DNA from: Luteimonas granuli
GTDB lineage: Bacteria > Pseudomonadota > Gammaproteobacteria > Xanthomonadales > Xanthomonadaceae
NCBI RefSeq assembly: GCF_007795095.1
Contig: NZ_CP042218.1
Location: 2,831,001-2,895,000 of the forward strand
Direction of reading: 5' to 3'
Length of the DNA: 64,000 nt
The notes under the pieces were generated by a model that was given only the letters and a program-made list of their open reading frames with translations, did not search any database and was not told the origin of the DNA. Shown here in pieces: positions 31,968 through 32,324 of this stretch; position 1 is the stretch's first letter, and every line of letters starts with the position of its first letter. Both the position numbers and the translations under genes were made by a program.

Positions 31968-32063
31968 CACTGCGGGGTGGGCATGGACCGCCGCCTCAGC
32001 CATCCATGGCTGAAGCGGCTACCGCGCACATCCATGTGCGCTGTCCATACCCACCCCGCAGTG
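31968..32063. repeat. Clover-leaf (three-way junction) inverted repeat, copy A
   Basis: Outer arms 31968-31988 and 32043-32063 pair over 21 bp with one C-A mismatch. Inside are two hairpins with 2-nt CC loops: 31996-32013 (TCAGCCAT/ATGGCTGA) and 32024-32041 (GCGCACAT/ATGTGCGC). Linkers are short (7, 10 and 1 nt), so the whole folds as a three-way junction. The central motif of both hairpins is CATCCATG. It has no coding features. Confidence 0.85.
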
Positions 32064-32204
32064 TCCCGCTCCCGCGGGCCCGGGTGTGTCGGCTTCGAAT
32101 CAACACTGCTCCCGCTTTGGCGACATGGCCGGGGGTTCGGGTGCGCCAGCGGCGGCGGCCGGCCGGGCTGCGGGCGCAGTTCTCCACGAGGCCGACAGCG
32201 GTGG

Positions 32205-32324
32205 TGCGGGAGGTGGCTGGCGGGGGAGTGCGGAGAGTGGGCCATGGATGGCCCACGTCCCCGCTTCCAGCCATGGATGGCTGGCGGCGGGGCGCAGCAC
32301 TCCCCCCGCCAGCCGCCTCCCGCG
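32205..32324. repeat. Clover-leaf (three-way junction) inverted repeat, copy B, opposite orientation
   Basis: Outer arms 32207-32231 and 32297-32322 pair over 25 bp with one G-T wobble and one bulged base, extending a further 2 bp outward. Inner hairpins with GG loops are 32237-32256 (GTGGGCCAT/ATGGCCCAC) and 32267-32284 (CCAGCCAT/ATGGCTGG). Read on the minus strand, the order and linkers match copy A (AGCGG follows hairpin 1 in both), but the stems differ by paired changes. Confidence 0.85.

Follow-up and report, generated by a model that had tools for sequence, protein, structure and literature searches.

Inverted Y-shaped repeats between purB and fumC of Luteimonas granuli: probable copies of a dispersed TwoAYGGAY-type, candidate RsmA/CsrA-binding unit

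The window analyzed here is a 64,000-nt stretch (bases 2831001–2895000) of the 2.92-Mb single-contig genome of Luteimonas granuli. The gap between the divergent genes purB (minus strand) and fumC (plus strand) holds two oppositely oriented Y-shaped units, A and B. An earlier note on this DNA had described two clover-leaf units in inverse orientation between these genes, and the location of the arms and hairpins of both units confirms this. The features are as follows, in window coordinates, with the strand of each unit and hairpin being the one on which its loops contain GGA.

30498–31868, minus strand: purB (name from the earlier note; start set by codon score)
31897–31902, minus strand: TAGAAT, probable −10 box of purB, with A upstream of it (28 of 30 syntenic gaps have ATTCTA or ATTTTA close to the start of purB)
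31968–32063, minus strand: Y-unit A (RF01731 match, model R1, RNA fold)
31968–31988: outer stem arm of A, 21 bp, paired with 32043–32063 (inverted-repeat search, fold, covariation)
31990–32019, minus strand: hairpin 2 of A, loop AUGGAU at 32002–32007 (sequence and fold)
32024–32041, minus strand: hairpin 1 of A, loop AUGGAU at 32030–32035 (sequence and fold)
32043–32063: outer stem arm of A, partner of 31968–31988 (inverted-repeat search, fold, covariation)
32206–32323, plus strand: Y-unit B (match to the A-type model R1)
32206–32226: outer stem arm of B, paired with 32303–32323 (inverted-repeat search)
32237–32256, plus strand: hairpin 1 of B, loop AUGGAU at 32244–32249 (sequence and fold)
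32267–32284, plus strand: inner stem of hairpin 2 of B, loop AUGGAU at 32273–32278 (sequence and fold)
32303–32323: outer stem arm of B, partner of 32206–32226 (inverted-repeat search)
32370–32375, plus strand: TATCCT, probable −10 box of fumC, with B upstream of it (17 of 30 syntenic gaps have TATNNT no more than 80 nt from the start of fumC)
32415–33809, plus strand: fumC (name from the earlier note; gene call; protein match in 39 of 41 genomes)

The strict unit A lies within wider inverted arms (31962–31991 and 32040–32069). The loop sequence of each hairpin is ATCCAT on one strand and ATGGAT on its complement, closed by a C-G pair, so that all four RNA loops are C-AUGGAU-G. These loops had been described as 2 nt long and are best read as C-G-closed hexaloops, ATCCAT/ATGGAT, with four unpaired bases in the fold. 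The AGCGG linker proposed as common to both copies is partly the foot of one hairpin, and A and B have different junctions. The RNA of either strand of A or B folds with a z-score of −9.7 to −11.0 (none of 200 dinucleotide shuffles was as good), and the DNA fold of the whole region has a z-score of −9.7 (100 shuffles). At the left edge of A, two imperfect 23-nt direct repeats (78%) are present at 31923–31968.

A matches the Rfam family TwoAYGGAY (RF01731) on its GGA strand (minus, 31961–32070) with 52.6 bits and an E-value of 8.5e-8, above the curated cut-off of 43 bits. The match came from a slow scan of the gap against Rfam and had escaped a fast scan of the whole window; the slow scan gave no RF01731 match for B up to E 10. 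The arrangement that defines the likeness to this family, two AYGGAY-loop hairpins enclosed by an outer stem, is present in both A and B. A model, R1, was built from A-type copies. R1 scores A, which belongs to the model, at 111.9 bits on the minus strand and 47.2 bits on the plus strand, and it finds B on its GGA strand (plus, 32215–32314; 51.5 bits, E 2e-7). As B has no RF01731 match but is found by R1, we call it a relative of A rather than a member of the family. Among 39 loci chosen from more than 300, R1 matches 22 at E ≤ 0.01, with matches on the opposite strand of several as well, and finds nothing up to E 1 in 16; the matched records include Pseudomonas viridiflava, P. kilonensis, Stutzerimonas, Stenotrophomonas maltophilia and Luteimonas. 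The RF01731 cut-off is passed in the slow scan by only 4 of 20 loci chosen for Y-units, including A's own. At the genome level, matches above the cut-off occur in 6 of 41 relatives' genomes versus none of 14 control genomes, and this search, which scored 51 of 199 candidates in the present genome, reports none there. Judged by these scores, A is a member of RF01731, and B and the sister repeats, many of which fall below the cut-off, are relatives of it. Weak matches to the Yersinia sRNA family Ysr224 (22.7–28.8 bits, cut-off 70) were also seen at two loci, L009 and L031, two of the three lying over Y-units.

A joint alignment of A-, B- and third-type units was misplaced by gaps, with a poor consensus, and covariation was therefore assessed in a gapless alignment of nine A-type copies, four of which represent the purB–fumC site in four genomes. 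With the fold of A imposed on these copies, 96.9% of the cells are paired, versus 31–48% with the partner slid, and 13 of the 39 pairs have changed on both sides. None of 500 shuffles is as high on any of five covariation measures. The proposed check of significance thus returns strong covariation, and the claim that paired changes preserve the shape holds for these nine copies. Ten of the 13 both-side changes sit in the outer stem, while the stem of the first hairpin is invariant; since several copies were found by hairpin pairing, the inner stems are not independent evidence of covariation.

A site for RsmA/CsrA has the consensus CANGGANG, with the GGA inside a hexaloop, ANGGAN, that a base pair closes. 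The octamer CATCCATG of the units reads CATGGATG on the opposite strand, and its C-AUGGAU-G loop fits this consensus. Among hairpins with at least six Watson-Crick pairs in the fetched loci, 105 carry the ATGGAT loop, and 34 loops differ from it by a single substitution, 25 at the two N positions of ANGGAN and 9 at the other four (binomial p 3e-6; 1, 20, 2, 1, 5 and 5 at positions 1 to 6). Counted by distinct stems, the share is 22 of 29 (p 3e-6). As the exact octamer served to retrieve most of the loci, exact-loop copies are inflated in this sample, whereas variant loops were not selected for. The nine A-type copies vary at none of the eight core loop positions and at three of the four N positions. 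From one genome (G296), 29 rows were found via the second hairpin, with the far closing base cut off in some. The first hairpin is element-like in 26 of them: it reads CANGGAN in 25, among which each N position is occupied by all four bases, and lacks GGA in one. Of the other three rows, two carry a shorter loop, AGGAC, and the third does not represent the element. GGA is also kept in all 15 rows taken of 16 in another genome (G459). The two loops are spaced 28 or 29 nt apart in all 18 units that passed a 22–36 nt filter.

Because the conserved positions of the loop are symmetric between the strands, the loop pattern alone names no strand. The GGA strand folds better in 29 of 39 families, a preference for which base skew more than accounts, and folding energy was consequently not used to name the strand. 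Wobble counts are too few to use, both over all hairpins (on the CATCCATG strand, 3 mismatches of G-T type versus 7 of A-C type) and as distinct events in the A-type set (6 versus 2, favoring the GGA strand).

Sequence patterns of the units recur in this genome and in its relatives. A two-octamer pattern occurs three times in this genome and is present in 29 of 41 genomes, including this one, with a reversed control of zero in all 41. In loci chosen blind to stems (L004–L032), at least three Watson-Crick pairs flank both octamers in 13 of 33 two-octamer matches and single octamers in 37 of 66 cases, versus 9 of 198 slid controls; for loci from all taxa the figures are 15 of 89 for both octamers and 54 of 178 for single ones. 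At least four flanking pairs are found at 15 of the first 30 of 162 octamers in this genome. Octamer pairs are not all Y-units.

The 12-mer GCCATCCATGGC has 91 copies in this genome and none of its control. Within the order, 131 of 151 genomes contain it, although low counts mean little and one genome has more control than true matches; the reversed control is sometimes high (11 versus 20 in G120). At least 15 copies are present in 15 of 150 Pseudomonadota genomes with CsrA and in none of 149 without it (299 genomes; Fisher p 4e-5, uncorrected for kinship). This threshold was chosen after the counts were seen, and at least 11 copies are found in 20 genomes versus none. The count is 10 or lower in every genome without a CsrA match (n = 149, absence being derived by subtraction in most), and low counts do occur there. 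The present genome has one CsrA gene (PF02599, E 1.9e-25).

purB and fumC are adjacent in all 30 loci checked, out of 39 genomes with a fumC match, and four of these 30 gaps hold units: this genome, G003 and G018 each carry the pair, and G013 has A with a gutted B. The other 26 contain no such hairpin, including the 109-bp gap of the near relative G007. By this comparison of syntenic gaps, the A/B pair is an insertion between purB and fumC. In G013 (L345), the outer arms of B are kept and its inside is lost, with A intact, which indicates that this copy of B is dispensable. The gap of G003 (L343) is 694 bp long, with the sequence left of A partly duplicated. The earlier view of a mobile, non-coding, structure-dependent element agrees with the dispersal of the units, their insertion in four of 30 syntenic gaps and the retention of their structure by paired changes.

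Considering these data together, we regard A and B as probable copies (probability roughly 0.6) of a dispersed, mobile, TwoAYGGAY-type RNA unit that would bind RsmA/CsrA. The GGA strand, once transcribed, would adopt a three-way (Y) fold presenting two C-ANGGAN-G hexaloops, which, held 28–29 nt apart, could both be gripped by one RsmA/CsrA dimer. Many copies could jointly serve as decoys that lower free RsmA/CsrA; alternatively, the units may provide local RsmA/CsrA sites wherever a transcript crosses them. Direct support comes from the structure, the covariation, the loop substitutions, the Rfam match of A, the copy number, the presence and absence at one site and the co-occurrence with CsrA; transcription, RsmA/CsrA binding, the decoy role and the way in which A and B move are inferred. 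Several findings weigh against this reading: the strand symmetry of the loop core and the matches of R1 to the other strand, the unbiased orientation relative to tandem genes, the position of both units outside the probable promoters, the low RF01731 scores of B and of most chosen loci, the dispensable B of G013, and the caveats on the 12-mer counts and their co-occurrence with CsrA. The earlier suggestion of an RNA- or protein-binding site is thereby retained as the best reading, in the form of a candidate RsmA/CsrA site.

The alternative that survives best, which we nevertheless consider unlikely, is a mobile repeat acting as DNA (REP-, BIME- or MITE-like), in which an endonuclease or transposase recognizes the ATCCAT/ATGGAT-loop hairpin and any resemblance to an RsmA site would be coincidental. 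Inverted pairs are dispersed with the GGA strands pointing outward in 23 of 24 mixed clusters, many of them related copies; tandem arrays exist; and the presence or absence of the pair at one syntenic site, the lack of orientation bias relative to genes and the terminal and A/T flanking repeats on abundant sister repeats would all suit such an element. It is less easily reconciled with the concentration of loop variation at the two N positions of ANGGAN, with the presence of CsrA in all 15 genomes that have at least 15 copies, and with the lack of a Y1 transposase match (Y1_Tnp, PF01797) in this single-contig genome, which is estimated to be 90% complete. Y1_Tnp is present in 24 of 41 genomes, and at least one CATCCATG occurs in just 6 of 30 fetched Y1 loci. 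A REP/RAYT origin in this genome, and with it the Y1 association that the earlier note had proposed to check, is not supported on these two counts. GTAG is found in the linker of eight of nine A-type rows and at the same place in none of six B-type rows.

Many of the GCCATCCATGGC copies in this genome are part of a larger composite, in which two Y-like units face each other at a distance of about 200 bp and the termini carry GGTTCTTCTCC-like repeats. By eye, the abundant composites L036, L038, L040, L044, L054, L056 and L059 have GGTTCTTCTCC-like terminal repeats and A/T-rich flanking repeats, and L038 has an exact 8-base flanking repeat, TTTTTTTC, on both sides. The ends of these composites are presumably ISL3-like. 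A MITE-like carrier is thus plausible for the abundant sister repeats, where these terminal and flanking repeats were seen, and for them this part of the earlier MITE-like proposal stands. Several of the abundant composites abut intrinsic-terminator-like stems.

Each unit is separated from its gene by a conserved −10-like box, which probably places A and B outside the purB and fumC promoters and hence outside the leaders; a consensus promoter scan found none. Single-orientation clusters between tandem genes are sense in 12 cases and antisense in 13, without bias. Together with the outward-facing pairs, the boxes and the unbiased orientation are easier to reconcile with a decoy or self-serving role than with control through local leaders. 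A role as bidirectional terminators or mRNA-stabilizing stems without a specific protein would draw on the very stable GC-rich stems and on the position of 184 of 190 hairpins outside genes (called by codon score), but it seems very improbable given that no terminator-like site was found at 31700–32600 and that the conserved loop is left unexplained. Least probable of all is cis control of purB and fumC by RsmA/CsrA acting on A and B as elements of the 5′ leaders, which we consider unlikely despite GGA strands that coincide with the sense strands of purB (A) and fumC (B) and start codons 99 nt (A) and 91 nt (B) away, given the positions of the boxes, the 26 of 30 syntenic gaps without a unit and the unbiased orientation elsewhere.

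Most known RsmA/CsrA decoy RNAs belong to a small set of dedicated sRNAs. CsrB, CsrC and RsmX/Y/Z are each encoded at a single locus with its own promoter. The candidate RsmA/CsrA-binding unit described here shares with them several GGA hairpins per RNA (PMC4383904) and differs from these dedicated sRNAs, none of which is among the 23 matches listed for the gap; one additional match there, of lower score, belongs to a same-clan family. RsmU of Xanthomonas campestris, which carries up to four GGA motifs, likewise binds RsmA, but it is processed from the 3′-UTR of one gene, is reported to be limited to Xanthomonas and is no repeat; with all four GGA motifs mutated, it still bound RsmA in vitro (PMC7694677). 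For Xanthomonas, no homologue of the known decoy RNAs is reported by that paper (PMC7694677). TwoAYGGAY RNAs were proposed in 2014, from motif matches, to sequester CsrA (PMC4333381), and the family is named once in PMC2864571. Among the matches listed in the literature search, no description of TwoAYGGAY as inverted pairs or dispersed repeats was found. As judged from sequence, what is new is that such units live as dispersed repeats whose loop varies as an RsmA/CsrA site would.

Palindromic repeats of other kinds offer further comparisons. REP/BIME elements with RAYT, and CGTC repeats, are likewise short palindromes, often in inverted pairs and in many copies (PMC3733652); these are defined by GTAG or CGTC tags, whereas in the present units the loop is the conserved part and the genome gave no Y1 transposase match. 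The R0 and R2 repeats of Pseudomonas fluorescens are intergenic, MITE-like inverted repeats of high copy number (PMC2718517), in the main text of which RsmA does not occur. A possible parallel is the outward Y-pair of a P. kilonensis record (L264:1481–2011), where two outward-facing Y-units lie within a longer inverted-looking structure that may represent an already described family of Pseudomonas intergenic repeats. A plasmid search gave no match for the window and two partial Pseudomonas matches for the P. kilonensis composite. The nearest experimental hint, by analogy, appears to come from P. putida, in which RsmA, RsmE and RsmI pull down intergenic sequences beside ISPpu8 copies or at sites where ISPpu8 probably inserts, one of these sequences being called a long palindromic region (PMC7937890). 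Among the matches listed, no title or start of an abstract linked dispersed repeats with RsmA/CsrA sponging, PMC7937890 being the nearest.

Should mobile, dispersed repeats share this binding site, a global regulator could be tuned by repeat number itself, and what abundant palindromes do would become directly testable. We put forward only tentatively the broader idea that, in CsrA-bearing Proteobacteria, several families of intergenic repeats either converged on a single predicted RsmA/CsrA-binding Y-unit or are descended from it, which would yield a genome-wide sponge tunable by copy number; or the repeats may use the regulator for their own transcription or movement. In one genome (G026), two loci (L093 and L095) contain tandem arrays with a period of 127 nt, which combine ATGGAT hexaloops with AGGAT pentaloops that we assume to be CsrB-like.
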